Of a stretch of 55,197 nt of DNA, positions 451-51,459 are shown one piece after another. Origin of the DNA: an uncultured Hyphomicrobiaceae bacterium (GTDB taxonomy: Bacteria > Pseudomonadota > Alphaproteobacteria > Rhizobiales > CALHAX01); contig CALHAX010000082.1 in assembly GCA_937931785.1 (NCBI GenBank), positions 1-55,197 on the forward strand, read 5' to 3'. Position numbers and translations under genes: made by a program. The notes below the pieces were generated by a model that worked only from the letters and a program-made list of their open reading frames with translations, had not been told where the DNA came from and did not search any database. The first letter of the stretch is position 1. Every line of letters starts with the position of its first letter.

Positions 451-1452
451 ATGGCAACGATTGAAATCGAGTATCTGGGTGGCCCGCAGGTCAAGGCGCT
501 TGCGCTCACGGACGCAGAAATTCTTGCGGCGGTCGAGGGAGCACTGGTTGCGACGGGAGAAGGGCAAACCGTGATCGAGCCACGTCTCCACCTGACGCCT
601 GATCCGGATGGCGATGGGCATTTCAACGTCTTGCGCGGATATGTGGCACCGCTGGACTATGCCGGTGTGAAGGTTGTTGGAGATTTTTATCGGAACTACG
701 AGCAGGGGCTGCCGTCGGAAATGGCCTTGCTCAACCTTTTTTGTCCTCGTACCGGAACGCCGAAAGCCGTGATCGATGCAGCCGGGATCACGGATATGCG
801 GACTGGCGCGCTGTCTGCACTCGGTGCCAAATGGTTGGGGCCGAAGAAGCCGCGGGTGCTTGGGCATATTGGTGCGCGGGGGACGGCCTACTGGAATGTC
901 CGCTTGCTGGATCACCTGTTCGATTTCGAGGAAATCCGGGTGCATTCGCGCCGACCGGAAAGCCGTGAGCCATTTGCCGAACGGTTGAGCAAGGATCTTG
1001 GCAAGACGGTGGTTGCGACCGAGGACTGGGAGAGTTGTCTCGTGGGTGCCGATATTGCCATTGAGGCGTCGCGCCTGACCGGGCCGGAACCCTTGTTCAA
1101 GACCGAGTGGGTAAAGAAAGGCGCACTGGTTATTCCGTATGGCACGATGAGTACCCTACCGCTCGATTTCGTGGATGTGTTCGACAAGTTCGTCATGGAT
1201 GACCTGGGTCAGATGCGCTCCGGGCATCTCGGTGCGCTGCGGCCGCATATTGATGCAGGGAAAATTTCTGAATCGAGTTTTTATGCGGAAATTGGTGAGA
1301 TTGCTGCCGGTACCAAACCCGGGCGCGAGTCTGCGGACGAAACCATTTTGTTCTGGCATCGCGGTCTGGCGACCAGCGATATCGCACTTGGAGCAGCCAT
1401 GCTTGAGAAAGCCCGTGCCATGGGGATCGTTCAGAAACTGGTGTACGCGTGA
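451..1452 (+). CDS. Ornithine cyclodeaminase/mu-crystallin family protein
   Basis: 333 residues, the usual length of the OCD/mu-crystallin family of NAD(P)-binding enzymes. The ATG at 451 is preferred over an upstream one at 376 because AAGGA sits 5 bases before it and family homology begins there. Visible family marks are TDMRTGA (residues 115-121, the substrate-carboxylate Arg region), a nucleotide-binding turn LGHIGARGTA (137-146) and the C-terminal pattern KPGRE..DETILF..GLATSDIALGA. At the place where true ornithine cyclodeaminases carry the catalytic Asp (G-D-x-P-G-K), this protein reads YGTMSTLPLD, so genuine ornithine deamination is doubtful; a reductase or dehydrogenase on an amino or imino acid is more likely. 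The stop overlaps the next gene's GTG start by 4 bases (GTGA), so the two are probably translated together and work on one substrate. Confidence 0.85.
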   Translation: MATIEIEYLGGPQVKALALTDAEILAAVEGALVATGEGQTVIEPRLHLTPDPDGDGHFNVLRGYVAPLDYAGVKVVGDFYRNYEQGLPSEMALLNLFCPRTGTPKAVIDAAGITDMRTGALSALGAKWLGPKKPRVLGHIGARGTAYWNVRLLDHLFDFEEIRVHSRRPESREPFAERLSKDLGKTVVATEDWESCLVGADIAIEASRLTGPEPLFKTEWVKKGALVIPYGTMSTLPLDFVDVFDKFVMDDLGQMRSGHLGALRPHIDAGKISESSFYAEIGEIAAGTKPGRESADETILFWHRGLATSDIALGAAMLEKARAMGIVQKLVYA

Positions 1453-2975
1453 GTGGGGTCGCATCCTCAACCGATGTTCTGGTTCTGACAGGCGACGATC
1501 TGAGCGTCACTAATCTCGAACGCGCAGCGTCGGGCGCTTGTGATGTAGCGTTGTCATCTGAAGGACTTGCGCGCATGACGCAGGCCCGTACTCTGGTTGA
1601 TCGTGCTGTTGCTGAGCGAACGCCGGTCTATGGCGTGACAACCGGGCTTGGTGCGCGCGTGACGGAGGCGCTTGACGCGAACACGTTGGCTGATTTTTCT
1701 CTTCAAACCATTCGTGGACGTGCACACGCTGTTGGTACGCCACTTCCGGTGGATGTCGTGCGTGCGAGCATGATCGTGCGTGCCAATACGTTGCTCAAGG
1801 GCGCGGCGGCGGCGCAACCTGTCATCGCAGAGCATCTGGTTGCTTGTCTGAATGCACGTGTGACCCCCGTGGTCGGGGACATGGCCTCCATCGGGGCTGG
1901 CGATCTGGTCTGGAACGCGACGATGGCGCTTGGGCTTATTGGCGAGGGACCGATGCAGGGCGCGGACGGTGCGGTCGGTGCCGGTGTCGACGTGATGGTT
2001 GCGGCTGGCATCAATGTACCTGTGCTTGGGCCACGTGACGGATTGGCGTTGTGCAACAATGCCAGTCATTCTGCGGCTCTTTGTGCACTGGGGCTTGCCC
2101 GTGCGGTTCGTGTTTTCGAGGCGGTTCAGGCGTCAGCGGGACTGACCATGGAAGCGTTTCAGGCGAACCTGTCGCCGCTTGATCCTCGCGTTATGGCGCT
2201 ACGTCCGCAACCGGGGCAGGCAGAGGCGGCCGCTGGATTATTGCGCTTGCTGGACGGTAGCCCACTGCATGCCGATGGTGCGGCGCGTCGGCTGCAGGAT
2301 CCGCTGTCGATCCGCAATGTCGTTCAGGTGCATGGGGCGGTTCATGCGGCGTTGGCATTTGCACAGGACGCTGTTGCTGTAGAAATCAATGGTGCGAGCG
2401 ACAACCCGGCGGCACTCGTGGAGGATGAAATTATTCTCTCTGCAGGTGCATACCACACGCCGCATCTGACGAATGCCATTGAAACCATCAATCGGGCGCT
2501 CGTGCATCTGGCGATGACGCAGCTTGCGCGCCTGTCGAAGATGATGGCGGAGCGGTTTACGGACCTGCCGACATTTCTCGCGGCACCCGGAAGTCATTCG
2601 AACGGATTTGCGCCTGTCATGAAAACGGCGGAAGCGATCGTTTCGGATGTAGTGCATGCGGCGCAACCGGTTGCGATCTGGCCAAGCATCAACGCTGATG
2701 GTGTCGAAGATTCCATGACTGCGACACCAACTGCCGCACGTGCGTTGCTGAACGCTGTGGACCGGATGCGTTATCTTGCTGCAATCGAATTGCTTGTCGC
2801 TGCACAAGCGGTGGACTTGCGCGGTGTGGCGGGCGATCTGGGTGGACCAATGCAGCGGTTGTACGGGTTTGTGCGGGACGTCTCAGCTCCGATTCATGCA
2901 GACCGACCCCTTGGCAGGGACATCGAGACTCTGGCTGAGCGGGTTGGGGACGGCGCGCTTGCTGAATCTTCATAG
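1449..2975 (+). CDS. Histidine/aromatic ammonia-lyase family protein lacking the MIO serine
   Basis: 508 residues, matching the HAL/PAL fold in length and order. It has YGVTTGLG at 61-68 (the Tyr loop, usually YGINTGFG), RDGLALCNN (196-204), QDPLSIRN (283-290), EINGASDNP (312-320) and the acidic VEDSM (419-423). In canonical enzymes Ala-Ser-Gly in GSVGASGDL cyclises to the electrophilic MIO group. Here the segment reads ASIGAGDLVWNA (147-158), one residue shorter, with no Ser. The usual Tyr of QDPYSLR is also Leu286, and the NG of the Asn loop is NN. It should therefore not work as a normal ammonia-lyase. Ergothionase, which eliminates trimethylamine from a histidine betaine, is a MIO-independent member of this superfamily and the nearest precedent I know. 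GTG start, coupled to the OCD-like gene; it converges on the Rieske gene with 5 bases between stops. Confidence 0.85.
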   Translation: MSGVASSTDVLVLTGDDLSVTNLERAASGACDVALSSEGLARMTQARTLVDRAVAERTPVYGVTTGLGARVTEALDANTLADFSLQTIRGRAHAVGTPLPVDVVRASMIVRANTLLKGAAAAQPVIAEHLVACLNARVTPVVGDMASIGAGDLVWNATMALGLIGEGPMQGADGAVGAGVDVMVAAGINVPVLGPRDGLALCNNASHSAALCALGLARAVRVFEAVQASAGLTMEAFQANLSPLDPRVMALRPQPGQAEAAAGLLRLLDGSPLHADGAARRLQDPLSIRNVVQVHGAVHAALAFAQDAVAVEINGASDNPAALVEDEIILSAGAYHTPHLTNAIETINRALVHLAMTQLARLSKMMAERFTDLPTFLAAPGSHSNGFAPVMKTAEAIVSDVVHAAQPVAIWPSINADGVEDSMTATPTAARALLNAVDRMRYLAAIELLVAAQAVDLRGVAGDLGGPMQRLYGFVRDVSAPIHADRPLGRDIETLAERVGDGALAESS

Positions 2976-2980
2976 CGAAA

Positions 2981-4150
2981 TCACGCCTCACCCAAACCCT
3001 CCCGAACCCAGTTGTGAAACTGGTGCAGGTAATACTCTTCTGGCATGAGGACGCCGGCTTGATGACCAAGGGCGTGGAGGCCGCGTTGATTGAGGGCACA
3101 GGCGGTTGCGTCCTGCTCCATGACAAGAATAGGAAAATCGGTAATTCGCCTGATCTCGAATTCAGGGGCGTTTGCCGTTTCAGCTGTCACGAACCACTCA
3201 GCTTGAAGCTCAGTTTTTTCCGGACCGAGAGGGCGCAACCGGACGATGCGCATATAATCTGCGTGACCTGCGACGAACATGGATGGAAGGCTGACGACAT
3301 AGGTGTGACCGGCCGCGCGTTCTGCGTCTGTTAGACCCTCGAACACAACGCCGGCAGGGGTGCCGTCATCGGTCCATGTTGTCGCGCCCTCCCGCATTCC
3401 GCCCTGGAATTTCGGGTCATTGATTTCTGACGTTTCCTTCCAGTCCGGAACGTCTTTGGGATTGATGATGCGGCGTGAAAACAGGGGAACCAGTTCGCTG
3501 AGTTCTGGATGAATATTGGGGCAATGCAGGCATTCGTTGAAATTTTCCCAAAATACCTTCCAGTTGCAATCCATGGTTTTCGTCCACGTGTGCACATGCA
3601 CAAGATCTTCCAAAGGCCAATTGTCCAGACGGGTGTTGTCACGCAGGAAAGCGGACTTGAAGCTTTCGGGATCATCGGAACCTGCCGGACAGACCATGAC
3701 GCACCCACGCCATTCCATAACGGCTGCGGAATAGAGTGGGTAATCCGCCTTGTCGAAATTTTCTGCTTCGGAATGTGATGTGGTCGATACCAGCCGACCG
3801 TCGAATGCATACGCCCATTGGTGATAAGGGCATGTGATCAGTTTTGACTTGAAACGCCCCTCGCTTCCTTCACACAGGATGGATCCGCGATGACGACAGG
3901 TGTTCTGGAACGCCCGCAACGTGCCGTCTCCATCGCGAACGATCAGAATGTTCTGGGTGCCAATCGTAAAGGTTTGCCATGCGCCGGATTCCGCGATGGC
4001 GTCACTGCGGCAGACATACAGCCATTGCCGGTACCACAGGGCATCAAGCTCACGGACGTGATGCTCCTGATCATAATAGTAAGAGCCTGGCAGCGTTGGG
4101 GCTGCATGGGTCAAACCATTGAAATCCATGTCCTGGAGCTGGTCCCCCAT
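2981..4150 (-). CDS. Rieske non-heme iron oxygenase, alpha subunit
   Basis: 389 residues from the ATG at 4150, which has AGGAG about 8 bases upstream (an in-frame ATG at 4192 lacks one). The N-terminal Rieske domain binds a 2Fe-2S cluster through Cys85-x-His87 (CRHRG) and Cys107-x2-His110 (CPYHQW). The catalytic domain has NWKVFWENFNECLHCPNIHPEL, giving His209 and His214 as mononuclear iron ligands, and a late VMEQDATAC segment for the carboxylate ligand. This layout resembles glycine betaine monooxygenase GbcA and other betaine or quaternary-amine N-demethylating oxygenases, and the two flavin/GcvT demethylases nearby make that assignment attractive. No ferredoxin reductase lies beside it; a 2Fe-2S ferredoxin is encoded at 23.2 kb. 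The exact substrate cannot be read from sequence. Confidence 0.88.
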   Translation of the reverse strand: MGDQLQDMDFNGLTHAAPTLPGSYYYDQEHHVRELDALWYRQWLYVCRSDAIAESGAWQTFTIGTQNILIVRDGDGTLRAFQNTCRHRGSILCEGSEGRFKSKLITCPYHQWAYAFDGRLVSTTSHSEAENFDKADYPLYSAAVMEWRGCVMVCPAGSDDPESFKSAFLRDNTRLDNWPLEDLVHVHTWTKTMDCNWKVFWENFNECLHCPNIHPELSELVPLFSRRIINPKDVPDWKETSEINDPKFQGGMREGATTWTDDGTPAGVVFEGLTDAERAAGHTYVVSLPSMFVAGHADYMRIVRLRPLGPEKTELQAEWFVTAETANAPEFEIRRITDFPILVMEQDATACALNQRGLHALGHQAGVLMPEEYYLHQFHNWVREGLGEA

Positions 4151-4236
4151 CGCATCTCTCCTCCCAGATCGTCGTGGTCCGTGTGACGGCACAAAACGAT
4201 GTCAGACGCGCCATGGCCTGTCCATAGGAGAGAGCC

Positions 4237-4274
4237 GCAAAGCCGGGCGCCTTTTTCCAGGCGTTCGGCTTTGC
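4237..4274. repeat. 15-bp inverted repeat with 8-base loop
   Basis: Arms 4237-4251 and 4260-4274 (GCAAAGCCGGGCGCC and GGCGTTCGGCTTTGC) enclose TTTTTCCA. On plus-strand RNA all 15 positions pair, two as G-U wobbles; on minus-strand RNA these two become A-C mismatches. It lies between the stop of the VHL-domain gene and the start of the Rieske gene, so it could end the former's transcript, but no U-tract follows on that strand. Confidence 0.6.
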
Positions 4275-4311
4275 TGATGCGTCGTGAGGTGTTTGCCTTG
4301 TGGTTGGTGGC

Positions 4312-5664
4312 CTAACGGCAGACGTTAAAGACGCCCGGCACACGGCGAGACGTGCACAGGATACCGCCCCATGTGTAGCCCGTCTGACCCGCGAAGCGAA
4401 TCTTGAACCATTCGTAACCGCGGTGCCGTTCGCCTGTACTTTCAAGTACAGTGACGGGAGTACCTTCGCGCAGTGTCGCTACGCGCCGACCGTCGAGGCC
4501 TGGTATGTCTCGAACGCGCCCGCCAAGTGACTCGCCGCGAATTGGCAGGGCTCCGTTTGACCCTGTCCGGATTCGGGCGAAGCGACGGTCATTGCCACGG
4601 CTTCCGCGACGTTCGATGACACGTTCCATACGCCGGTTCAGACGTGCCAGACGTTGCTTTGTGCGGCGTTCGATACACTGGCTCCGTCGACCACACGCTT
4701 CGCGGTCTTCCAGCCAGTCTTGTTGGCGACGACGTAATTTTGTTCTCTGGACGCGGGGAAGCGCACGCACGAGTGAGCTATAAAGCCGCTCAAGTTCATC
4801 ATCGAGACGCGCCAACTGTCCATCGTTGCAAATCGCTTTTTCAGTTCGCGTGCTGTATTCCGTGCAGCGCCAGTTGCGAGAAATTCTTCCCTGACGTCCG
4901 GTGGTGAGCGGTTCGTCACCCCATTCCGGAGAAATAGCACGACGGTTGCTGCCTGGCGTTCGTGGAAGCGGTTCGACTATGGCCACATCGTCTTCGTCGT
5001 CGCGCCGGTCTGGATCATCAAGATCGGTTGTGTCCGAAGCGAGGTCGTCTTCGCGGATATCGTCATCTGTTTGAGCGAGATCATCGTCGTTCTCAAAATC
5101 TGAGTCTGACAATTCCTGATCATCGAGTGCTGGTTCAATCTTGCGTCGTGCGATCTTGGTGTCAGCGCGGTCGTCCGTGTCGAAATCATCATCGGGGAGT
5201 TCAGCTCCGGGTGTTCGGAAAGAGGATGCCGGTTTCCGCACTGTGACTTGCTCGTTGGATTTCGGTAACTCCGCGACCTTCTTCTCTTTCTTGATCGGCA
5301 TGATCACGGGTGCGATGCCAGGCTCAACGGAGGTTGTCTTGCCCTCTGCCAGGTAAAAACCGACGCATTTGTTCTTTGCGCCAGTCACAAGCCATGGGTG
5401 TGTCAGGAACGTTGGTTGATCATAGGACTCACCGGGATCAAGGTCCTGATACTTGTGGCGCTTGCCGTCGTAGTCAATCCAGTAAACTGTCTGTTTGTCT
5501 GGTGTGCGGTTCGTGAACGTGATGGTGGACTTGGTGTCGCCATTCCTGGCCTTGAGGCTTGTCCCAGCATCGCAGGCGACTTCGCGCGCTTCGACGGACG
5601 GTGAAGTCGAAAGCAGAAACGCGGCGGTGAGAGTGGCTGTTGCGAATGTTGCAGCGCGGATCAT
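4312..5664 (-). CDS. Secreted VHL-beta / LprI-like / SH3 multidomain protein
   Basis: 450 residues from the ATG at 5664, which has ACGGAG about 9 bases upstream. Residues 1-26 are a Sec signal peptide (cleavage after SVEA). Residues about 42-112 match the von Hippel-Lindau beta-domain: TFTNRTPDKQTVYWIDYDGK, LDPGE, then THPWLV correspond to pVHL's CNRSPR..VWLNFDG, LPPG and GHLWLF. Residues about 155-230 are very acidic (runs of Asp) and probably disordered. Residues about 266-340 look like the LprI/DUF1311 lysozyme-inhibitor domain, with paired Cys (WRCTEY, AICNDGQL, REACG, SQCIERR). Residues 380-440 form a bacterial SH3 domain ending YTWGGILC. The protein likely sits in the periplasm or outside the cell, perhaps binding peptidoglycan or a protein ligand. 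The VHL-like assignment is from motif likeness; function is unknown. Confidence 0.8.
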   Translation of the reverse strand: MIRAATFATATLTAAFLLSTSPSVEAREVACDAGTSLKARNGDTKSTITFTNRTPDKQTVYWIDYDGKRHKYQDLDPGESYDQPTFLTHPWLVTGAKNKCVGFYLAEGKTTSVEPGIAPVIMPIKKEKKVAELPKSNEQVTVRKPASSFRTPGAELPDDDFDTDDRADTKIARRKIEPALDDQELSDSDFENDDDLAQTDDDIREDDLASDTTDLDDPDRRDDEDDVAIVEPLPRTPGSNRRAISPEWGDEPLTTGRQGRISRNWRCTEYSTRTEKAICNDGQLARLDDELERLYSSLVRALPRVQRTKLRRRQQDWLEDREACGRRSQCIERRTKQRLARLNRRMERVIERRGSRGNDRRFARIRTGSNGALPIRGESLGGRVRDIPGLDGRRVATLREGTPVTVLESTGERHRGYEWFKIRFAGQTGYTWGGILCTSRRVPGVFNVCR

Positions 5665-5814
5665 TTCAAATACTCCGTTTTCGCCCGTCAGTGGAACCGC
5701 CAGGGCCATCTGGACGATTCTTATACTCATCCGCGCAATACTATGGCCAAAATTTGTGGACGCAATGAGGTGTTGTACCGAAGGGCAACGGTTCTTGCGG
5801 ATTTTACGTATGTG

Positions 5815-8238
5815 TCACGCTTTCAGACGCGTGTTTTCCGGGTCGTAGGGGGGGCGATCCAGGTGAGCCGCAGAGAGGGACGCATGGAGCACGCGGATGC
5901 TGAACGGCTTCGTGCTGTCTGCGCCAGGGCGCAAAAATGCGAGGGCGAGCACCTTCCCAGTACGGGGCCCGAATGCGGCTGAGGTCACGAGTCCTACCGG
6001 TTTGCCATCCTGTTCCACAGTGTGCCCGTAGAACGGTATGAGATTTTCTACTGGCTTTATATCAAGCAATATCATGGACCATGCGGTGGCGGGATTGCGC
6101 CGTGCGAGCATGGTCTCGCGACCGGTGAAGATGCGTCCATCTGATTCTACAAACGCATTGAGGCCCGTTTCGAATGGGGTGCGTTCTGTCGTGAGGTCGG
6201 CGCCCCATGCGCGGTAGCCTTTTTCCAGCCGCATGGCGTTTATGGCGTAGGCTCCGAAATGGGCCATACCATGCCCCTGCCCTGCAGAGATCAACGTGTC
6301 GTATACCGCCCTGAGGTGTTCCATTGAGACATGCAGTTCCCATCCCAGTTCGCCGACATATGACACCCTCAAGGCACGGACGTGATGGTTGGAAATTGAG
6401 ATGTCCTGCGCTGTCAGCCACGGGAAAGCTACATTGCCAAGATCTGTGTCTGTCACACTTTGGAGAACGTTGCGGGATCCTGGACCCATGATGGCAAGGA
6501 TACCGATCGTGCTGGTAACGTTCGCTACAGTGACGCCGTCTGGTGCGCGGGCCCGGAGCAAATCTTCGTCACACCGCTCAGCAGCAGCGGCGGATGTGAG
6601 GTAGAAGTGGTTTTCGGCGAGACGGGTAACCGTAAACTCGGACGCGATTCCCCCTGCGGGTGTCAGGACGTGTAGCAGACGGATACGGCCATTTTGGCGT
6701 GGCGGCGTGTTTGCGCCAAGTGTTGCGAGGAACTCAGCAGCGTTTTGACCGGTGACTTCGAATTTGGAAAACGGAGATAAATCAGCAAGGCCAACGGCGT
6801 TTCGAACTGCTGAGCCTTCGCGTTTGACGGCATCCAGCCAGTCGGGTTGGCGAAACGTCAACGGCGGTGTGGGCTCATCCTGCTTTGCAAACCAATTCGG
6901 ACGTTCCCAGCCATAAACTGCGCCGAAAACTCCGCCCGCGGCTTTCTGGGTGTCGTAGAGTGGAGTTTGGCGTTGGTTGCGACCGTCTGCGCGTTCCTCG
7001 AACGGGTAGTGCACGCCGAACTGGAGTTTGTATCCGGCGACGGCACGTTCAAGGCGATAGGCGCGATCAGCGTAGTTCCCGAAGCGACGTGAATCGATCG
7101 CGAGTGGGTCCATGGGTGGTGCGTCGTCGACGATCCAGTCTGCAAGGAATTTTCCGGCTCCGCCGCCTTCCATCACACCCATGCTTGATCCCGTCAGCAG
7201 CCACGCGTTGTCCGTGCCGAACGCAGGGCCAACGAGCGGATTGGCGTCGGGCGAGAATGTAATCGGGCCATTCACGACCGTCTTGATGCCGGCGTCCGCA
7301 AGCGCAGGAATGCGGATTATGGCCATTTCGATGATGTCGCTGATACGGTCGAGGTCAGGTGGGAGGAGCTCCATTCCGAACTCGGGCGGCACCCCGTCGA
7401 TGGACCAGGGAACCCCGTCCTTTTCGTAGGGACCGATAATAAAACCATCGCGCTCCTGGCGGACATACCAGCTTTCTTCGGGATCGCGAATGATGGGAAG
7501 CTCTGGTTCTTGATCCGCAATGCGCTTTGCAAGAATGGGAACAGTGTCCGTGACCACGTACTGATGGAGCATTGGAACAACGGGGATATCCATGCCCATC
7601 ATGGTGCCGATTTCGCGACACCAGGTGCCGGCAGCATTTACGACGTGTTGTGCGTGAACGTCGCCGCGGTTTGTGTTGATGTGCCAGGTCGATCCGTCAC
7701 GCTCGATCCTGGTCACAGCCGTATGGCGTGCGATGGTTGCGCCGTGCTCGCGCGCCATGCGTGCCATGGCGTTGGTTGCAAGTGTCGGATCCACATGTCC
7801 GTCATCGGGTTCATGAATGGCGCCGAGCAAACCATCCAGTGTGCAGAGGGGATATATGCGTTCCAGTTCGGTGAGTGTTAGAATGTTGAGTGGGTAATCC
7901 GTGAAGGTGCTCAGTCCACGGACGTGGTGAAATTCGTCCATGCGATCCTGCGACCGTGTGACACGCAGTGCGCCGCAGGGATGGAAACCAACGCTTTCAC
8001 CAACCTCGGACGGCAAGGTGTCGCGATACAAGCGTACGCTTGCTGCGCGCAACTCCTGGATTGTGGCGTTGTGTGCGAAGTGGGTGCAAAGACCTGCAGC
8101 ATGCCATGTCGAGCCAGCCGTCAGTTCATTTTTTTCGATCAGAAGCGTATTGGTCACACCGCGTTTGGCGAGGTGATAGAGGAGTGAGACGCCCATCACA
8201 CCTCCGCCAATGATCACGATGTCAGCTGATGTTTTCAT
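5815..8238 (-). CDS. FAD/GcvT fusion demethylase, dimethylglycine/sarcosine dehydrogenase family (copy 1)
   Basis: 807 residues. The N-terminal DAO-type FAD domain starts with IVIIGGGVMGVSLLYHLAKRG (residues 8-27, kept here as the GxGxxG fold) and has STWHAAGL at 43-50; His46 corresponds to the His that binds FAD covalently in dimethylglycine dehydrogenase. The C-terminal half (from about residue 430) is a GcvT-like tetrahydrofolate-binding domain with typical YVGELGWELH and RLEKGYRAWGADL segments. Such enzymes remove an N-methyl group oxidatively and pass it to THF as 5,10-methylene-THF. Its start overlaps the stop of copy 2 by 4 bases (ATGA), so the two are co-translated. Substrate may be dimethylglycine, sarcosine or a related N-methyl amino acid; which copy takes which is not decidable here. 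Confidence 0.88.
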   Translation of the reverse strand: MKTSADIVIIGGGVMGVSLLYHLAKRGVTNTLLIEKNELTAGSTWHAAGLCTHFAHNATIQELRAASVRLYRDTLPSEVGESVGFHPCGALRVTRSQDRMDEFHHVRGLSTFTDYPLNILTLTELERIYPLCTLDGLLGAIHEPDDGHVDPTLATNAMARMAREHGATIARHTAVTRIERDGSTWHINTNRGDVHAQHVVNAAGTWCREIGTMMGMDIPVVPMLHQYVVTDTVPILAKRIADQEPELPIIRDPEESWYVRQERDGFIIGPYEKDGVPWSIDGVPPEFGMELLPPDLDRISDIIEMAIIRIPALADAGIKTVVNGPITFSPDANPLVGPAFGTDNAWLLTGSSMGVMEGGGAGKFLADWIVDDAPPMDPLAIDSRRFGNYADRAYRLERAVAGYKLQFGVHYPFEERADGRNQRQTPLYDTQKAAGGVFGAVYGWERPNWFAKQDEPTPPLTFRQPDWLDAVKREGSAVRNAVGLADLSPFSKFEVTGQNAAEFLATLGANTPPRQNGRIRLLHVLTPAGGIASEFTVTRLAENHFYLTSAAAAERCDEDLLRARAPDGVTVANVTSTIGILAIMGPGSRNVLQSVTDTDLGNVAFPWLTAQDISISNHHVRALRVSYVGELGWELHVSMEHLRAVYDTLISAGQGHGMAHFGAYAINAMRLEKGYRAWGADLTTERTPFETGLNAFVESDGRIFTGRETMLARRNPATAWSMILLDIKPVENLIPFYGHTVEQDGKPVGLVTSAAFGPRTGKVLALAFLRPGADSTKPFSIRVLHASLSAAHLDRPPYDPENTRLKA

Positions 8239-10712
8239 GTTCCGTTGCCCTTCCCGCCTCGCATTTTCTCGCCGCTTGGATCATAGGCAGCGCGGCGCAG
8301 TGGCGTCAGCGGATATTTTCTTGCCGCAACGTCAATCTGGTAGTTTCCATCAAAGCGGGATTCCGGGAGCTCACCAGCTTCGAGCTTCATCCAGCCAAGG
8401 CAGAGGTTTTGTCCTGTCCTGAACCCGCGTGCTCCGGATGTCGTTTGTCCGACAAGTGTACCGTCGCGATAAATCGGTTCATCGTGCAACAGGAGAAGTT
8501 CATCTTCTGTCACCACAAACTGCATGAGTGAGCGTTGAATGCCATTTTCGTGCTGGCGCAACAGCGTATCTCGTCCGATGAAGTTCTCTGGTTTCTTCCA
8601 GTCGATGGTAAAGCCCAGTCCGGCTTCGATCGGTGTATCATCTGGTCCGATGTCATGTCCCCAGTGCCGAAATCCCTTTTCGATCCGACAGGCGTCAAGG
8701 GAGAACAATCCGGCATGTGCGAGTTGGTGCTTGAGTCCGGCCGTAACGATGGTTTCATGGATATGGAGTGCGACATCGTTGTCCATGCTCAATTCAAAAC
8801 CGGATTCTCCCATGTAGCTGAGGCGTGTGGCACGGGCGCGTGCCATTCCAATGTCGACGATCTGCGATGTTCCGAACGGGAATGTGGCGAAGGAGAAGTT
8901 GTTATCACTGATGGAGGACAGGAGTGCGTGGGCCTGTGGTCCCATCACCCCGAGAACGGCTTCGTGCGATGTCCGGTCCACGATGTGGACGCTTGCTGTG
9001 AGGTCGTCGCGTTGCGTTGCAAGACGTGAAAGATCGCGCCAACGAGACGCCGCCCCACTCGTGATGCGGAAAAATTGCACGCCGAAGCGTGCGATCGTGA
9101 CATCGGCTTCGATACCGCCACGTGTGTTGAGGAGCGGTGTGTAGACGGTTCGCCCAACATCGATGTCAACATTGCCAGCCGCGATTATCTGAAGGAAAGG
9201 CAGTGCGTCGGGGCCCGTGATATCGATCTTCGTGAACGGAGTCAGATCGTAAAGTGCGACGCTGTCCCGAACAGCTTCTGCTTCGTGCGCTGCAGGCCCC
9301 CACCAGCTCTGCGTACCGTAACTGTAGGCCATGCGCATTTCTTCCGGCGTACGCCCGAACCACAACGGACGTTCCCAACCTGCAGGTGCGCCGAACACAC
9401 CGCCCGCCTGCTTGTTTGCGTCATGCAGTGGCGTGCGTTTCACGCCTCGTCCGGTGTTGGGTTGTTTGTGTGGCCAGTGCATTGCGAACTGATCGCCAAC
9501 GGCTTCCTGCACGCGCGCGGAGAGAAATGTTTTGTTGCCTGTTGTTGGATCAAGACGTGCATATTCCACATCGCTGAGATCCATAGCGGGTGTGCCGTCG
9601 ATCATCCATTCTGCCATCACCTTGCCAACCCCCGCTGACGACATGATGCCGATGGAATTCATGCCGGCTGCGACGTACAGATTTTTGATTTCTGGAACGT
9701 TGCCCATGAGCTGACGGGTATCAGGCGTGAAGCTTTCCGGACCATTCATGAAGTGCTGAACACCGATCTTTGCAAGGTCCGGCCAGCGGTGCAGGCCCGC
9801 CGTCATGAATGGTTCGAACTGATCCCAGTCTTCAGGGAGTTCGAGGAATGGTGTGTCACCGCTCGGCCCCGCGGCGTTCCATGTTTTTGCGTTGGGCTCA
9901 AAGCCACCGAGCACCAATTTCCCGGCATCGCCCTTGATGTAGATGCGGGCGTCAAGATCGCGGAGGATGGGGAAGGGTGTAGGGGCATCGACCAATGGTT
10001 CGCTGACGATGTACATGTGTTCGACGGCCTGAAGCGGCACTCTGAGCTTATGTGCTGCCTTGGTTCCCAGAAGGTTTGACCACGCACCCGCGCAGATGAT
10101 GACTGTTCCCGCCTGAACGTGCGTTCCGTCTGCAAGGATAACACCTCTTACCTTTTGGCCTTCGATGCTGATACGGGCTACGGGCGTGTTGTCTTCAATC
10201 CGAACCCCATTGGTTCGAGCGCCCTTTGCGTACGCCATGCACAAATCGACTGGATTGACCTGCCCATCTTCTGCAACGAACAACGCACCGGCAAGGTCAT
10301 CAGTGTGGAGGTGCGGGACGCGACTGGCCAGGTCATTTGCGGAGAGTATTTCGGGTGTCAGGCCTGTGAGCAATCCGAGGCCTGCAATACGCTTCAACTC
10401 CTCGAGCCGGTCTTCAGTTTGAGCAAGCCAGTATCCGCCTGTCTGCTGATAACCGGTGGCCTGACCTGTTTCCTCTTCCAGCGTGCGGAAAAGTTCGGTG
10501 CCGTAGATTGCCAGTTTGGTCAAATTGATGTTTGAGCGCAGTGGGCCGACAATTCCTGCCGCATGCCATGATGTGCCGCTTGTCAGTGTATTGCGTTCCA
10601 GCAGTAGCACATCGCGGGCGCCTGCCTTCGCGAGGTGGTACGCGACGGACAGGCCGATCACACCTCCACCAACGATGATATGTTCTGCGGTGCGTTGTGG
10701 AATTGCATTCAT
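8235..10712 (-). CDS. FAD/GcvT fusion demethylase, dimethylglycine/sarcosine dehydrogenase family (copy 2)
   Basis: 825 residues from the ATG at 10712, with a weak GGA 7 bases upstream; an in-frame ATG at 10751 would add 13 residues and cannot be excluded. The FAD-binding start is HIIVGGGVIGLSVAYHLAK (11-29), and TSWHAAGI places the likely covalent-flavin His at 50. From about residue 440 the GcvT-type domain follows (YMGESGFELS, ACRIEKGFRHWGHDIG). The sequence differs clearly from copy 1, so this is an old duplication with probably distinct substrate steps. It lies upstream of copy 1 in transcription order and downstream of gcvP after a 390-base gap, so it may belong to the glycine-cleavage operon or have its own promoter in that gap. 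Confidence 0.88.
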   Translation of the reverse strand: MNAIPQRTAEHIIVGGGVIGLSVAYHLAKAGARDVLLLERNTLTSGTSWHAAGIVGPLRSNINLTKLAIYGTELFRTLEEETGQATGYQQTGGYWLAQTEDRLEELKRIAGLGLLTGLTPEILSANDLASRVPHLHTDDLAGALFVAEDGQVNPVDLCMAYAKGARTNGVRIEDNTPVARISIEGQKVRGVILADGTHVQAGTVIICAGAWSNLLGTKAAHKLRVPLQAVEHMYIVSEPLVDAPTPFPILRDLDARIYIKGDAGKLVLGGFEPNAKTWNAAGPSGDTPFLELPEDWDQFEPFMTAGLHRWPDLAKIGVQHFMNGPESFTPDTRQLMGNVPEIKNLYVAAGMNSIGIMSSAGVGKVMAEWMIDGTPAMDLSDVEYARLDPTTGNKTFLSARVQEAVGDQFAMHWPHKQPNTGRGVKRTPLHDANKQAGGVFGAPAGWERPLWFGRTPEEMRMAYSYGTQSWWGPAAHEAEAVRDSVALYDLTPFTKIDITGPDALPFLQIIAAGNVDIDVGRTVYTPLLNTRGGIEADVTIARFGVQFFRITSGAASRWRDLSRLATQRDDLTASVHIVDRTSHEAVLGVMGPQAHALLSSISDNNFSFATFPFGTSQIVDIGMARARATRLSYMGESGFELSMDNDVALHIHETIVTAGLKHQLAHAGLFSLDACRIEKGFRHWGHDIGPDDTPIEAGLGFTIDWKKPENFIGRDTLLRQHENGIQRSLMQFVVTEDELLLLHDEPIYRDGTLVGQTTSGARGFRTGQNLCLGWMKLEAGELPESRFDGNYQIDVAARKYPLTPLRRAAYDPSGEKMRGGKGNGT

Positions 10713-10876
10713 GCGTTTGTCCGAGGCTGTGATTGCCTCTCTGGATCGCATGTTCTGGCTGTTCCGTCATCACTGTGTGACGAGGTTTGAAATGTCTTTA
10801 TTGTTTACATTTGTTTGCGGAAACTGACCCAGCAACCACTGAAACTCCCGGAGTATGACGTGCGGGTGGGTAAAGT

Positions 10877-11044
10877 TCAGTAATCCCCGCTGTCAGTAAC
10901 ACCGACAATTTCAACCTGCTTCGGCCATTCTGATGCGACGGTTTTAGCAGCAGCGATCGGGACGTTCGGGTCGTGACCACCTTGTACCAATCGTTTGTCA
11001 TCACGCTTCTGTGTGGACACTTCGGGGTGATGCTGAACATGCAT
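10877..11044 (-). CDS. Possible small protein in the gcvP-demethylase gap
   Basis: A 55-codon reading frame from ATG 11044 to TGA, inside the 390-base gap that otherwise has no gene (10713-11102). The product is hydrophilic and looks protein-like in its second half (GGHDPNVPIAAAKTV, then VEIVGVTDSGDY at the end), which is why I list it. It has no convincing Shine-Dalgarno and I recognise no family. It may be a real small gene, a remnant, or chance. It has the same orientation as its neighbours. Confidence 0.3.
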   Translation of the reverse strand: MHVQHHPEVSTQKRDDKRLVQGGHDPNVPIAAAKTVASEWPKQVEIVGVTDSGDY

Positions 11045-11058
11045 GAACGGCGACCGGA

Positions 11059-11093
11059 CACTGGAGCACCCATTGACAGGGATTGCTCCAGTG
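11059..11093 (-). terminator. Hairpin just downstream of gcvP
   Basis: A perfect 9-bp inverted repeat, CACTGGAGC at 11059-11067 and GCTCCAGTG at 11085-11093, with a 17-base loop, starts 10 bases after the gcvP stop. There is no U-tract on the minus strand, so it is not a classic intrinsic terminator. It may attenuate read-through into the demethylase genes or protect the gcv mRNA 3' end. Confidence 0.4.
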
Positions 11094-11102
11094 CAACTCT
11101 TT

Positions 11103-13967
11103 CTACTCCGCTGCTTCAGCGTAGGCTTCCATGGGTGGGCAAGTGCAAACAAGGTTGCGGTCCCCGTAGACGTTGTCGACCCGATTGACCGGAGGCCAAT
11201 ACTTGTCGACACGGAACGCGCCGGGCGGGAAACAGGCCTGCTTGCGCGTATAGGGGCGATCCCATTCGCCAACGAGATCTTCCACGGTGTGTGGTGCATT
11301 TTTCAGCGGATTGTTTTCCGCATCAATGCGGCCATCCTCGATATCGCGGGCTTCTTCGCGAATGGCGAGCATGGCGTTGCAGAACCGATCAATCTCAGCT
11401 TTGGTTTCAGACTCTGTTGGCTCGATCATCAACGTTCCTGCGACAGGCCAGCTCATGGTCGGTGCATGGAATCCATTGTCGATGAGGCGCTTTGCGACGT
11501 CGTCAACCGTTACGCCTGCGCTCTCCTGCAGGGGGCGTGTATCAATGATGCACTCGTGCGCGACACGCCCGCCAGGGCCTTTGTAAAGCACGTCATATGC
11601 CCCTTCGAGGCGACGTGCGATGTAGTTTGCGTTGAGGATGGCGATGCGGGTCGCTTGTGTCAGGCCTTCCCCGCCCATCATCAGGCAATAGCTCCATGAA
11701 ATCGGAAGGATCGACGCCGAGCCGAATGGCGCTGCTGATACTGGACCCTCTGTGCCGCCAGTCATCGGGTGTCCTGGCAGGAATGGTATGAGGTGCGCTT
11801 TCACACCGATTGGACCCATGCCCGGACCACCGCCGCCGTGTGGAATGCAGAATGTCTTGTGCAGGTTGAGGTGACTGACGTCAGCGCCAAAGTCTCCCGG
11901 ACGGGCGATGCCGACGAGTGCATTCAGGTTTGCACCGTCCAGATAAACCTGACCGCCGTGCTGATGTGTGATGTCACATATCTCACGCACCGAGCTTTCG
12001 AACACACCGTGGGTCGAGGGGTAGGTGATCATGCAGGCGGCAAGATTTTCTGAATGTTCTTCGGCCTTGTTGCGAAAATTGTCGACGTCGATGTTACCAT
12101 TTTCATCCACATGAACCGGAACCACCTGCATGCCGACCATTTGTGCCGATGCGGGATTGGTTCCGTGTGCGGATGTCGGTATCAGGCAGATATTGCGATG
12201 CGCGTCGCCGCGATGACGATGATAGGCACGCACGCACAGGAGGCCGGCGTATTCGCCCTGGGCGCCCGAATTGGGTTGCATGGAAATCGCGTCGTAACCT
12301 GTAATCTGGCAGAGCTTGTCAGACAGATCATCGATCAGTTCGCGGTAGCCTTCAGCCTGATCAACTGGCGCGAACGGATGGAGCTCGGAAAATTCCGGCC
12401 ATGTGATGGGCAACATCTCGGCCGTCGCATTCAGCTTCATGGTGCAGGAGCCAAGTGGGATCATGGATCGATCAAGTGCGAGATCACGATCTGCGAGGCG
12501 ACGCATGTAACGCGTCATCTCGCTCTCCGCACGGTTCATATGGAAGACGGGATGCGTGAGATACTCCGATGTGCGGATCAGGTTTTCCGGCAGGCGATAC
12601 GAGGGATAGCTTTCGTTATATTCTTCTCCAGTCCCACCGAACGATCGGAATATTGCTCGCACCGTGCTGGGGCGTGTGCGCTCGTCCACCGTGATCCCGA
12701 TCTTGCGATCACCAATCTTGCGGAAATTCAGACCGTTTGTGACGGCATTGCCCATGATCAGATTCTGGTATGGGCCGACGTCGATTGTGATGGTGTCGAA
12801 GCAGGCCTTGGGCTCTATGATAAAACCCAGGGCCTCAAGACCATCTGACAATCGTGCGGCCTTGCGGTGTACGCGTTCTGCGATGGCTTTCAGTCCGCGC
12901 GGACCATGGAAGACCGCATACATGGACGCCATGACAGCGAGCAACACCTGCGCTGTGCAGATGTTGGATGTCGCTTTTTCGCGACGTATGTGTTGTTCGC
13001 GGGTTTGCAATGCAAGCCGGTAGACGCGATGACCGTGGCTGTCGACGGACACGCCGACGATGCGCCCGGGCATGGCCCGCTTGTGGGCATCCTTTGTTGC
13101 CATGTAACCGGCGTGTGGCCCGCCGTATCCCATTGGAACGCCGAAACGCTGCATGGAGCCAACAGCAATATCTGCACCCATTTCCCCAGGTGGCTTCAGA
13201 AGCGCCAGCGCGAGGGGATCGGCGGCCATGATAGCCAGTGCTTTTTCAGCATGGAGTTTTTCAATAACGGAAGAATAGTCGTGGAACAGACCATCGACTC
13301 CGGGATACTGGAAAATCGCACCGAATACAGCTGAGGCTTCAAGTTCAGTGAACGGATCTCCAACAATAATATCCCAACCAAGAGGTGCTGCACGCGACTT
13401 CAAAACGGCGATGGTTTGCGGAAGACAGTCCTTGTCGACAAAAAAGGCATTGGCTTTCGACTTTGACACGCGATGTGCCATTGCCATCGCTTCCGCGGCG
13501 GCGGTTGCTTCATCGAGCAGAGAAGAATTTGCAATGTCGAGCCCGGTGAGATCGGTCACCAGTGTCTGGAAATTGATGAGCGCTTCGAGGCGGCCCTGAC
13601 TGATCTCTGGTTGATATGGGGTGTAGGCGGTATACCAGGCCGGGTTCTCCAGAATGTTGCGCTGGATCGCGGGTGGCGTGATGGTGCCGTGATACCCGAG
13701 GCCGATGAGGGAGACGAGGTTCTTGTTTTTTGCAGCTGTTGCGCGCAGGCGATCCAGTGAACCACGTTCGGACAGTGGGCGTCCGAAATCCAGAGGTTCT
13801 GTCTGGCGAATGTCTGCAGGCACCGTTTCGTCGATGAGGGCTTCAAGGCTTTCGACCCCGATTGTGCGTAGCATCTCGGTGATTTCTTCAGCAGACGGGC
13901 CGATGTGCCTGCGATTGGCGAAGTCATAGGGCTCGTATCGGCTTGTGTCGGGGGTGTTCGAAGTCAT
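11103..13967 (-). CDS. gcvP: Glycine dehydrogenase (decarboxylating), P-protein of the glycine cleavage system
   Basis: 954 residues, the length of the single-chain P-protein. It is the PLP enzyme that decarboxylates glycine and loads the aminomethyl group on lipoyl-GcvH. The PLP lysine is Lys704 in [21 protein letters not shown]. The N-terminal half has the expected [18 protein letters not shown] segment and ends with [13 protein letters not shown], typical of the family. It overlaps gcvH by 4 bases and follows gcvT-gcvH in one minus-strand operon under the glycine riboswitch. Glycine produced by the downstream demethylases would be its substrate. Confidence 0.98.
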
Positions 13968-14326
13968 CCAATCAGTTCTCCGTACGCGGTTTCGTCCAGA
14001 AGGGCTTCGGCTGCGGATACATCATCGAGTTTCATCTTGAAAAACCATCCGTCATCGGCGGGATTGGTGTTCACGATTGCCGGATCGTTTGTGATCGCTT
14101 CGTTGATCTCGACGATTTCGCCTTTCAGTGGCGCATAGATTTCCGATGCGGCCTTGACGGATTCAACTGTGGCCGCGACGTCCCCCATATCGAATTTTGC
14201 TCCTACATCGGGTAACTCCACGAAAACGAGATCTCCGAGTTCACCAGCGGCATGTTCTGTAATGCCAACCGTAGCAACGTCACCTTCGACCTGCAGCCAT
14301 TCGTGATCTTCTGTGAATTTCAGCAT
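13964..14326 (-). CDS. gcvH: Glycine cleavage system H protein
   Basis: 120 residues, normal for the lipoyl carrier of the glycine cleavage complex. Lys58 in [13 protein letters not shown] is the lipoylation site; FTEDHEWL at the start and [19 protein letters not shown] near the end are family hallmarks. It lies 18 bases after gcvT and its stop overlaps the gcvP start (4 bases), so stoichiometric expression with gcvP is likely. Confidence 0.98.
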
Positions 14327-14344
14327 TTTATTCTCCGCTTCAGT

Positions 14345-15490
14345 TTATTTGCGTTTGTAATTTTGGGTGATGAAAGGAAGTTTGGTGACGACAACGGGTA
14401 AGCGTTTGCCACGGACATCGGCAAAGATCTGCGTGCCGGGAGAGACGTGCTCGATCGCGACATAAGCCATGGAAACGGGATGTTCCACCGTTGGGCCAAA
14501 ACCGCCAGATGTTACGATTCCAATCGCGTTTTCTGACTGTTCGTCAGTGAAGAGTTCCGCACCAGAGCGTACCGGAGCACGACCCTCGGGTTTCAAGCCA
14601 ACGCGGCGGCGTGTGGCGCCATTTTCGAGTTCATCAAGGATAATCTCTGCTCCTGGGAAACCGCCTTGCGTCGCACCGTTGCGGCGACGGGTTTTCTGAA
14701 TGGCCCACTCCAGTGCGGCTTCGACTGGTGTTGTCGTCTCGTCGAGATCTGAACCGTAAAGGCAGAGTCCCGCTTCCAGACGAAGCGAGTCACGAGCACC
14801 GAGACCGATTGCTTCCACGCCTTCGATATCGAGAAGAGCCTGGGCAAGTGCGGCTGCGTCAGCCGAGGGTATTGAAATTTCATAACCATCTTCGCCCGTG
14901 TACCCTGAGCGTGACACAATGCAGTCTGCGCCATTGATGTGCAGGTTCGCGACATCCATGAACCGCATTGCCGCGCAGTCTGGTGCGTATTGGGCTAAAG
15001 CCGTTTCCGCCTGCGGCCCCTGAAGGGCGAGCAGTGCGCGGTCCGGAAGAGGTTCAATGATGCAGGTTTCATCGAGATGCGATTTCAGGTGCGACAGGTC
15101 GATGTCTTTGCAAGCTGCATTGACGACCAGAAAGAAATGATCTCCCCGATCGGCAATCATCAGATCGTCCTGAATGCCGCCGTGCCGATTGGTGAAAAGT
15201 GCGTAGCGTTGACGGTTTTTCGCAAGCCCTTGCACATCGACCGGGACCAGCGTTTCAAGGGCGCGCGCAGCATCTGCCTGATCGCCTGAACGGGCACGAA
15301 CAATGATTTGTCCCATGTGGCTGACGTCGAAGAGACCCGCGTGCTTGCGTGTATGTATATGTTCCCTGAGCACGCCAGGGGCATACTGGACGGGCATTTC
15401 GTAACCGGCGAACGGTACCATCTTGCCGCCAAGCGCGGTGTGCAGATCGAACAGGGGCGTTCGCTTGAGATCATTCGGTGCTGCGGTCAC
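14345..15490 (-). CDS. gcvT: Glycine cleavage system T protein (aminomethyltransferase)
   Basis: 381 residues starting with GTG at 15490; a weak GAGG lies about 11 bases upstream. It transfers the methylene carbon from GcvH-bound aminomethyl-lipoate to THF, releasing ammonia. It reads RTPLFDLHTALGGKMVPFAGYEMPVQY at the start, written here only as the family's N-terminal block (residues about 10-36), with FDVSHMGQI following and SGYTGEDGYEIS mid-chain. I considered DMSP demethylase DmdA, a GcvT relative, but position directly before gcvH and gcvP and the canonical motifs make true GcvT far more likely. First gene after the riboswitch. Confidence 0.97.
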   Translation of the reverse strand: MTAAPNDLKRTPLFDLHTALGGKMVPFAGYEMPVQYAPGVLREHIHTRKHAGLFDVSHMGQIIVRARSGDQADAARALETLVPVDVQGLAKNRQRYALFTNRHGGIQDDLMIADRGDHFFLVVNAACKDIDLSHLKSHLDETCIIEPLPDRALLALQGPQAETALAQYAPDCAAMRFMDVANLHINGADCIVSRSGYTGEDGYEISIPSADAAALAQALLDIEGVEAIGLGARDSLRLEAGLCLYGSDLDETTTPVEAALEWAIQKTRRRNGATQGGFPGAEIILDELENGATRRRVGLKPEGRAPVRSGAELFTDEQSENAIGIVTSGGFGPTVEHPVSMAYVAIEHVSPGTQIFADVRGKRLPVVVTKLPFITQNYKRK

Positions 15491-31592: not shown

Positions 31593-32957
31593 TCAGACCC
31601 AGATATCTGACGAGCAGTCGCCGCCGGGGTAGCGTGTTTCGTGCGCGCGCGCTGGGCCATGCGGTTCTTTACCGAAGTCGACGAGGAACTTGTCGTTGAT
31701 GGACATGCCGCCCTTTTCCGTGTCGCAGTCGACAACGAGCATCACGCCACCGGCTTCCTTCATGTCCGGATAGAACTGGTTGTCCCAGGTGGAGAACAGT
31801 GAGGTTGTGACGTAAAGACGTTTGCCGTCCAGTGAGAGCTGGATCATCTGTGGCGCGCCGTGGACGGGGCGTCCATTAACTTCCGGTTGCTTGCCAAGCA
31901 TTCCACCGATCCAGACTTGCCCTGTCAATTTCGGGTTCGAAGGATCGGAAATGTCGTACTGACGCAGATCGCCGTGCAACCAGTTCGAGAAGTAGAGATA
32001 TTTATCGTCCATCGACACGAGGATGTCTGTGATCAGGCCGGGCATTGGAACCGGGAAGCTTTCGACGTCAATGGAGTCGACGTCGATCACCTTTTCGATC
32101 TGCAGTTCGCCGCTATCGTCCTTGTACCAATGGAAGATGTTGGATGAGAGAGTCGCACCGACAAATCCGTGTGTTGAATCCGGATCGTGGTGAAAGCGAA
32201 CTTCGAGGGGGATCATGCCTTCTTCCCCAAGATTAACGGTTTTCTCGATACTCTTGTTCTTGAAATCCCAGAAATGAATGGATGAGCCGTAGTTGCCCTT
32301 GCCCACGTCCTCAAGATCGAACCCCGGCATGAACGTATTTGGCGCGGCCCATTCGGTGGACACCATCATGTTGTGGCGGGGCTGATACCAGAAGTCGTAG
32401 TTGAAATTCATGCCGGTGATATCTTTTTCCCAGCGACCCATAATCTCGAAGTCCTTATTGAGATGCAGGAAGCCACCGGGTGCGTTCCCGTCGGCGTCGC
32501 CGAGCATCGAGACGATGATTTCCGATCCGAGGCAGTGCACGGTGTGGGGTGCGGAGAGGTTGGTCTTCTTCTTGATCTCGTCGCCGTCGATGGTCTTGAA
32601 CAACGTTGGTTTGCGTGGATCGGTTGCCGTGTCGACAATGTAGAAATTCGAGGTGCGCACACCTGGGATGATCAGGTACTTGCGGGACATGCTGGCATCG
32701 TCATTGCACGAAGAACACGCGTTCCAGCCCATGTGGTGGAGCTCGTCACCGACGATTGGCATTTCCGTTCGATGGATAACCTCGCCATAGGTCGGGCTGG
32801 TTTCATCCACGTCGATGGTGGCGAGATAGTCGGGTTTCTCGATGCCTGTCCCGGTGTAGATGCAGATCGTGTAGACGACCTTTTCGCGTGGTGCCTTGAT
32901 GGCGTCCTGAGGGGATGCGTAGCCCGGACCCGCACAACATTCTGCTGCTTCTGCCAT
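31593..32957 (-). CDS. mtoX: Methanethiol oxidase / selenium-binding protein SBP56 family
   Basis: 454 residues from ATG 32957, with AGGAGG about 8 bases upstream. The SBP56 seven-bladed propeller family includes bacterial methanethiol oxidase MtoX, which turns methanethiol into formaldehyde, sulfide and peroxide. Key marks are DELHHMGWNACSSCNDD (His74, His75, Cys81, Cys84), SAPHTVHCLG, HHDPDSTHGF and the C-terminal GGDCSSDIWV. Unlike some MtoX proteins it shows no evident Sec signal. The next gene in the transcript, a DmdB-like ligase, supports a role with methylated sulfur compounds. Confidence 0.9.
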   Translation of the reverse strand: MAEAAECCAGPGYASPQDAIKAPREKVVYTICIYTGTGIEKPDYLATIDVDETSPTYGEVIHRTEMPIVGDELHHMGWNACSSCNDDASMSRKYLIIPGVRTSNFYIVDTATDPRKPTLFKTIDGDEIKKKTNLSAPHTVHCLGSEIIVSMLGDADGNAPGGFLHLNKDFEIMGRWEKDITGMNFNYDFWYQPRHNMMVSTEWAAPNTFMPGFDLEDVGKGNYGSSIHFWDFKNKSIEKTVNLGEEGMIPLEVRFHHDPDSTHGFVGATLSSNIFHWYKDDSGELQIEKVIDVDSIDVESFPVPMPGLITDILVSMDDKYLYFSNWLHGDLRQYDISDPSNPKLTGQVWIGGMLGKQPEVNGRPVHGAPQMIQLSLDGKRLYVTTSLFSTWDNQFYPDMKEAGGVMLVVDCDTEKGGMSINDKFLVDFGKEPHGPARAHETRYPGGDCSSDIWV

Positions 32958-32976
32958 TTTCTTTCCTCCTCGTTTC

Positions 32977-33006
32977 AACGCCCTTGCACAACTTCGGGCG
33001 TTTTTT
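32977..33006 (+). terminator. Terminator-like hairpin reading against the local genes
   Basis: AACGCCC (32977-32983) and GGGCGTT (32996-33002) with a 12-base loop are followed by TTTTTT on the plus strand. Both flanking genes run on the minus strand, and no plus gene is near. It could stop antisense transcription or act as a leader structure of the methanethiol oxidase mRNA. Confidence 0.45.
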
Positions 33007-48913: not shown

Positions 48914-49489
48914 ATGGTGCGCGGGATTGTTTGCGTTGTGGTTGTGGGGCTGATGGTCTCTGGCTGTCTGTGGTCGTCTTCTGATCCTGAAAGCAAGTTT
49001 TCGCCGCGTGTGGTGAATTTCGGACAACCGGTGCCGAAAGGTGGTGGACACCACAAGCTTGGCAAACCCTACAAGATCGGTAGCCTCGTCTACGTGCCGC
49101 AAGCGGATCAGAACTACGATCGCAAAGGTGTGGCGTCCTGGTACGGCAAACTGTTCCATGGACGACTGACCGCGAACGGAGAAGTGTACGACATGCGTGC
49201 GCTCACCGCCGCGCATCCAACGCTTCCGCTTCCATCCTATGTGCACGTCACCAATCTGACGAATGGACACGATATTATCGTGCGGGTGAATGATCGCGGA
49301 CCATACGCACACAACCGCATTATCGACATGTCGCGTGAGGCGGCCCGTGCGCTGGGTTTTGAGCAACAGGGTACCGCCAAAGTGCGTGTCCGCTATCTTG
49401 GCCCGGCCCCGCTGAGTGGCGATGATTCCTACGAGAAGAACTACCTGCGCAAGAAATACAAGATCTCGAACGCGCGTGCTTCAGGTTGA
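48914..49489 (+). CDS. rlpA: RlpA-family septal ring lytic transglycosylase, lipoprotein
   Basis: 191 residues from ATG 48914 (GTG 48905 is the alternative). The lipobox VSGC (Cys about 16) marks a lipoprotein. The double-psi beta-barrel domain has GVASWYGKLFHGRLTANGEVYDM (in part), LTAAHPTLPLPSYVHVTNL and VRVNDRGPYAHNRIIDMSREAARALGF in blocks, with the catalytic Asp of NDRGP. It cleaves naked glycans at division sites; no SPOR domain is present. It ends 9 bases inside the convergent OCD-family gene. Confidence 0.93.
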   Translation: MVRGIVCVVVVGLMVSGCLWSSSDPESKFSPRVVNFGQPVPKGGGHHKLGKPYKIGSLVYVPQADQNYDRKGVASWYGKLFHGRLTANGEVYDMRALTAAHPTLPLPSYVHVTNLTNGHDIIVRVNDRGPYAHNRIIDMSREAARALGFEQQGTAKVRVRYLGPAPLSGDDSYEKNYLRKKYKISNARASG

Positions 49490-50431: not shown

Positions 50432-50463
50432 GAGCGTTCTCCCTTGCTGTGCTTGGTGCCAGG

Positions 50464-51345: not shown

Positions 51346-51459
51346 GGATTGTGCTCTTGTGCTGCAGGCTTGCGTCCTGGCACTTGAACCGGGACAAACC
51401 GAGCTTTGCCATGCCGGTCCCATCCTCAATTGTCCATGGGAAAGTGTGTCGAGGGGCAA

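Follow-up and report, generated by a model that had tools for sequence, protein, structure and literature searches.

Ammonia-lyases of the HAL, PAL and TAL types form their MIO group from an Ala-Ser-Gly tripeptide and use a catalytic Tyr within a QDPY motif. What does a member of the same fold family do when it has neither? The question is raised by the second gene of a pair that begins only 450 bases from the start of the window, by which we mean the whole stretch of 55,197 nucleotides analysed here, a contig from an uncultured Hyphomicrobiaceae bacterium; the first gene of the pair encodes an ornithine-cyclodeaminase-family (OCD) protein (Table 1). The match of the lyase covers nearly the whole Pfam Lyase_aromatic model and its reading frame is open, while its scores against the two NCBIfam hutH models (311 and 310 bits) lie far below their cut-offs of 524 and 539. 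The first-pass annotation had described the MIO-equivalent loop as one residue short and devoid of the serine, and a direct reading of the codons at 1884–1907 bears this out (GCC TCC ATC GGG GCT GGC GAT CTG, encoding A146 S I G A G D L153). Compared with P. putida HAL (GSVGASGDL), the protein is short by one residue of the Ala-Ser-Gly tripeptide, and no serine in a shifted register was found at the MIO position in the alignments. The gap is therefore where it was said to be, although the residue numbers first given (147–154) were off by one: with the GTG at 1449 taken as residue 1, they are 146–153. The family motifs reported as retained (YGVTTGLG, EINGASDNP and VEDSM) are all present and, as had also been noticed, the Tyr of QDPYSLR is Leu. 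Tyr61, Arg289 and Glu420 are invariant in a 34-row alignment (A3).

Table 1. The OCD–lyase gene pair and its features (window coordinates).
Feature	Position	Strand	Description
OCD/mu-crystallin-family protein	451..1452	+	333 aa, first gene of the pair; PF02423 165.5 bits
GTGA overlap	1449..1452	+	Lyase start codon overlaps OCD stop codon; read directly
MIO-less PF00221 lyase	1449..2975	+	508 aa, GTG start; Pfam Lyase_aromatic 362.7 bits
YGVTTGLG	1629..1652	+	Residues 61-68; Tyr61 (HAL Tyr53) retained; invariant in alignment A3
Arg91	1719..1721	+	Sits at the HAL His83 place
MIO-equivalent loop ASIGA-GDL	1884..1907	+	Residues 146-153; one residue short; read directly and from alignments
QDPLSIR	2295..2315	+	Residues 283-289; Leu286 replaces HAL Tyr280; Arg289 (HAL Arg283) retained
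Lys392	2622..2624	+	MIO-less clade marker; Val386 in HAL, Lys in ergothionase
Glu420	2706..2708	+	Equivalent to HAL Glu414; invariant

A frameshift, a sequencing error or a private deletion was rejected as the source of the missing residue, which is also missing in dozens of other genomes. A scan of bacterial genomes, with aligned close relatives as the query, yielded 66 loci. Among 67 aligned proteins, 15 keep the loop column and 52 lack it, and both the window lyase and T. denticola ergothionase belong to the 52. A tree with ergothionase and HALs had been proposed at first pass; in the 75-row tree, the 60 MIO-less rows, ergothionase among them, form one clade with an SH-aLRT of 100, although the long branch of ergothionase leaves its position within the clade uncertain. 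Judged from alignment and tree, the loop gap is thus an old trait of the whole clade and not, as first presented, a peculiarity of the window gene, and the window protein counts among the MIO-less lyases of the ergothionase clade. The parallel drawn earlier with ergothionase also stood, in that this enzyme is one residue short at the same place and likewise has Leu for the Tyr. The clade can be recognised by three features: the loop gap, Leu, Ile or Val in place of Tyr280, and a Lys where HAL has residue 386 (48 of the 52 MIO-less rows versus none of the 15 MIO-type rows). The HAL His83 place is occupied by Arg in 47 of the 52 and by His in all 15 MIO-type rows; ergothionase retains the His. 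The branches among which the window's own clade falls hold L066 and L073 (hut-linked and OCD-linked) and L064 (of the S-methyl-thiourocanate type). An AlphaFold2 model of the window lyase, for which the plasmid rows were left out of the input alignment, reached a pLDDT of 92.7. Its best structural match was ergothionase (6s7j, Z 44.1), with HALs tied at Z 42 to 43, so that structure comparison was uninformative for separating the two.

The clade is large and bacterial, and its members are mostly misnamed. Genes annotated hutH at L105 (11995–13500; SIGAADL, QDPLSYR) and on about 70 Rhizobium plasmids belong to it, and these labels are likely misannotations. At L066, a second, divergent PF00221 lyase (6399–7985, minus strand) adjoins the MIO-less one; its loop, SLGTGDL, is also short, it retains QDPYPFR, and on these features we class it as a further subtype.

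Ergothionase works without MIO and releases trimethylamine (TMA; PMC13405746), and MIO-free elimination of TMA is probably the reaction class of the window lyase too. The enzyme would take up an alpha-N-trimethylated amino acid, remove the acidic beta-proton next to the aromatic ring and expel TMA, leaving an acrylate; since the departing amine carries a positive charge from the start, no MIO electrophile would be required. An amine-eliminating lyase acting on a trimethylated amino acid, as suggested at first pass, is still the best reading: relatives are flanked by genes for betaine-type ABC transporters, by hut genes and by an MttB-family methyltransferase gene. The predicted mechanism is of the ergothionase kind and not new chemistry. 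Since the MIO tripeptide and the catalytic Tyr are both missing, the protein might instead be a decayed or repurposed lyase without elimination activity, but this is very improbable given that dozens of genomes preserve the core, Tyr61, Arg289, Lys392 and Glu420 included, along with the gene partners. As for the substrate of a TMA-eliminating enzyme, the most likely single candidate is hercynine (histidine betaine), a possible rather than a probable assignment. Its products would be urocanate, to be finished by the genome's ordinary HutU and other Hut enzymes, and TMA, which after oxidation may feed a TMAO demethylase route.

Hydratase partners provide a guide to substrates, and their model scores sort the clade into thiourocanate, S-methyl-thiourocanate and true urocanate types. 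Beside the MIO-less lyase lie a thiourocanate hydratase at L115 (1054.7 bits, cut-off 930) and an S-methyl-thiourocanate hydratase at L064 (956.7 bits, cut-off 880), and the hydratase of L091 is nearest to the thiourocanate model. Such pairings, together with the ergothionase-like loop and Leu and the top structural match to 6s7j, would suit a window enzyme that is an ergothionase in the strict sense, converting ergothioneine or S-methyl-ergothioneine to thiourocanates. We nevertheless consider this improbable. The window genome (3.66 Mb, estimated to be 99.3% complete) contains no thiourocanate hydratase and no S-methyl-thiourocanate hydratase (NF058531); its sole urocanase lies on another contig (C39), about 2 kb beyond HutH, and the 209-aa piece that was tested scores best with hutU. 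A single hut-type urocanase argues against a thiourocanate product, as do, against a strict ergothionase, the 28% identity to the T. denticola enzyme and the replacement of its His83 by Arg.

The true urocanate type is represented by L066, L077 and Parapusillimonas granuli, whose HutU proteins score 908, 898 and 934 bits against hutU (cut-off 375) and fall below the cut-offs of both the thiourocanate and the S-methyl models; HutI is above its cut-off at all three. L066 (lyase, OCD, HutU, HutI) and L077 (HutU, lyase, HutI) come from two actinobacterial lineages. The P. granuli run (L112, 4037–18497) comprises OpuAC, lyase, ProV, HutC, a TctC-like protein, OCD, a PhnD-like protein, HutU, a HutD-like protein, HutI and HutG, so that the MIO-less lyase and a betaine ABC transporter stand in the place of HutH in a complete hut operon. 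The P. granuli genome has no second PF00221 protein and hence no MIO-type HAL. Because it would feed a canonical urocanase and is accompanied by a betaine transporter, this lyase should act on hercynine and release TMA, making it a predicted hercynine trimethylamine-lyase. A search for more hut operons with a MIO-less lyase in 300 genomes of the P. granuli order gave 29 further loci, and those with a readable loop carried MIO-type HutH. OpuAC-type binding proteins can hold histidine betaines, as EgtU illustrates (PMC9732360), and 9 of 10 cyanobacterial strains were found to contain hercynine (PMC3826126).

The commonest neighbour in the clade is OCD, present at 25 of 44 loci in several orders and orientations. 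Identity among these OCD proteins ranges from about 57 to 80%, and that of the window, beside the lyase as in P. granuli, is ~63% identical to its P. granuli counterpart. Because the GTG start of the window lyase lies inside the OCD stop codon, the two are probably translated together. By eye, the OCD protein keeps Arg and Lys residues that characterise the family, and its nucleotide-binding glycine motif is altered. None of the steps in the proposed route requires this protein, and no role for it there is obvious. Its orthologs occur in 19 of 289 genomes of the class (the window genome included), mostly in unrelated surroundings, which makes OCD a weak substrate marker; because orthologs occur without the lyase too, OCD alone does not name the substrate. 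Elsewhere in the window (49481–51459, minus strand) there is a second OCD-family gene, above the cut-off of a pyrroline/piperideine-2-carboxylate reductase model, which overlaps a FolD-like gene; OCD is next to FolD in L158 as well.

Other neighbours are more varied. Relatives of the window lyase adjoin betaine-type (OpuAC/ProV) ABC transporters. Roseobacter plasmids have the gene order LysR, OCD, lyase; on rhizobial plasmids the lyase and OCD are accompanied by OpuAC-type betaine transporters and a PhnD-like protein that lacks an evident signal peptide, and on some also by LLM flavin monooxygenases; and at L117 the lyase gene lies behind one for an MttB-family methyltransferase, the two overlapping by 4 bases, while an MR_MLE enzyme, PhnD and OCD are encoded at a greater distance. 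The PhnD/SsuA-like proteins beside OCD at L110 (11335–12147) and L105 (15618–16424) have no evident signal peptide and a conserved Cys (MCGYP/TCGYP), and from these features could be a desulfinase-like enzyme and not a transport protein. A class-III aminotransferase and a glutaminase beside some relatives were set aside, being an ordinary GABA transaminase and glutaminase where tested.

Members from Rhizobium and Paracoccus sit directly behind CoA-transferase, MaoC and SDR genes, and their substrate is probably not processed through urocanase. Because these members have such partners and L064 has an S-methyl-thiourocanate hydratase, we read the gene neighbourhoods as showing that substrates vary within the larger clade. 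The window lyase itself could carry out the same MIO-less elimination on a different aromatic betaine, for example that of tryptophan, phenylalanine or tyrosine, giving an aryl-acrylate other than urocanate. In favour of this, the CoA-transferase, SDR and MaoC beside the Rhizobium and Paracoccus relatives are what a side-chain route for such an acrylate would call for, the His that binds the imidazole in HAL is Arg91 here, and the window clade is without hut neighbours. We regard this as rather unlikely: the P. granuli and L066 operons, which are hut-linked, contain OCD as well, the Rhizobium lyase is preceded by a HutC that exceeds its cut-off, and Arg91 is also found in the hut-linked L066 and L073. 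A further point against hercynine is that the pocket residues Asn203, Ala334, Tyr335 and Ser422 of the window lyase differ from those of hut-linked members.

The genomic setting of the window lyase can be compared with the demands of the hercynine route. There are no hut genes beside it, HutU and HutH being on C39 and the lyase contig ending 450 bases before OCD, and none near its closest relatives. The HutH on C39 is an intact MIO-type enzyme (GASGDL) and the only other PF00221 protein of the genome. A TMAO demethylase is present (1198.6 bits, cut-off 1100), with none of 14 control genomes above the cut-off. Within the order, urocanase occurs in 6 of 6 genomes with the clade versus 19 of 54 without (p=0.0035), a co-occurrence that is confounded because the window genome and those of the closest relatives all have a normal HutH, which already explains urocanase in them. 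Taken leniently, the combined reading that we narrowly favour is an ergothionase-clade TMA-lyase with hercynine as its most likely substrate, passing urocanate, and perhaps TMA after oxidation, to the genome's own enzymes. More broadly, and tentatively, the clade may include a widespread hercynine TMA-lyase with an OCD-family partner that offers an alternative entry into histidine-type catabolism, from the betaine to urocanate and TMA, and stands in for HutH in the hut operon of at least one species.

The betaine demethylases near the lyase, offered at first pass as a clue to its substrate, did not hold up as such: they lie on the opposite strand and do not recur in a scan of 57 loci, and were rejected as conserved partners. 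The Rieske and FAD-GcvT (dimethylglycine-dehydrogenase-like) genes (2981–10751) are convergent with the lyase; distant homologues lie about 2.3 to 6 kb from the lyase of L114. Adjoining the lyase pair, they form part of a minus-strand block (2981–15490) that comprises a Rieske oxygenase (GbcA-like, below the cut-off), two FAD-GcvT fusion dehydrogenases and GcvP/H/T and that probably serves to degrade methylated glycine. The window also encodes a methanethiol-oxidase-like (MtoX/SBP56) protein, well below the model cut-off (31593–32978, minus strand), and a histidinol-dehydrogenase-family gene (37655–38962, plus strand) behind a GntR-type regulator gene and away from any his operon seen, perhaps a catabolic paralogue.

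In public records, members of the clade carry the label histidine ammonia-lyase, yet they are without the group that makes an ammonia-lyase. Annotation may therefore overestimate histidine breakdown and overlook the release of trimethylamine. Should hercynine prove to be the substrate, an abundant cyanobacterial betaine would gain a degradation route, and soils and seas a new source of TMA. We found no description of the clade's breadth, the OCD pairing, the sorting by hydratase partner, the hut-operon form or a hercynine lyase in the literature covered, to which the primary ergothionase papers did not belong; this does not prove absence.

Three known systems bear comparison. S-methyl-ergothioneine catabolism (marker NCBIfam NF058531) is linked to the clade by L064, where the MIO-less lyase adjoins this hydratase, but the hydratase is absent from the window genome and OCD was not found beside L064. 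MIO-dependent HutH shares the fold, and the window lyase has equivalents of its Tyr53, Gln277, Arg283 and Glu414, but is without Ala-Ser-Gly and Tyr280 and far below the hutH cut-offs. T. denticola ergothionase (PDB 6s7j/6s7q) differs in sequence (28% identity), in having His where the window lyase has Arg at the HAL 83 place, and in that the window lyase has an OCD gene partner and a genome without thiourocanate hydratase. The two nevertheless share the PF00221 fold, the loop that is one residue short (SSIGE-GDI in ergothionase), QDPLS in place of QDPYS (QDPLSFR and QDPLSIR, respectively), Lys at the HAL 386 place, and the active-site Tyr and Glu.
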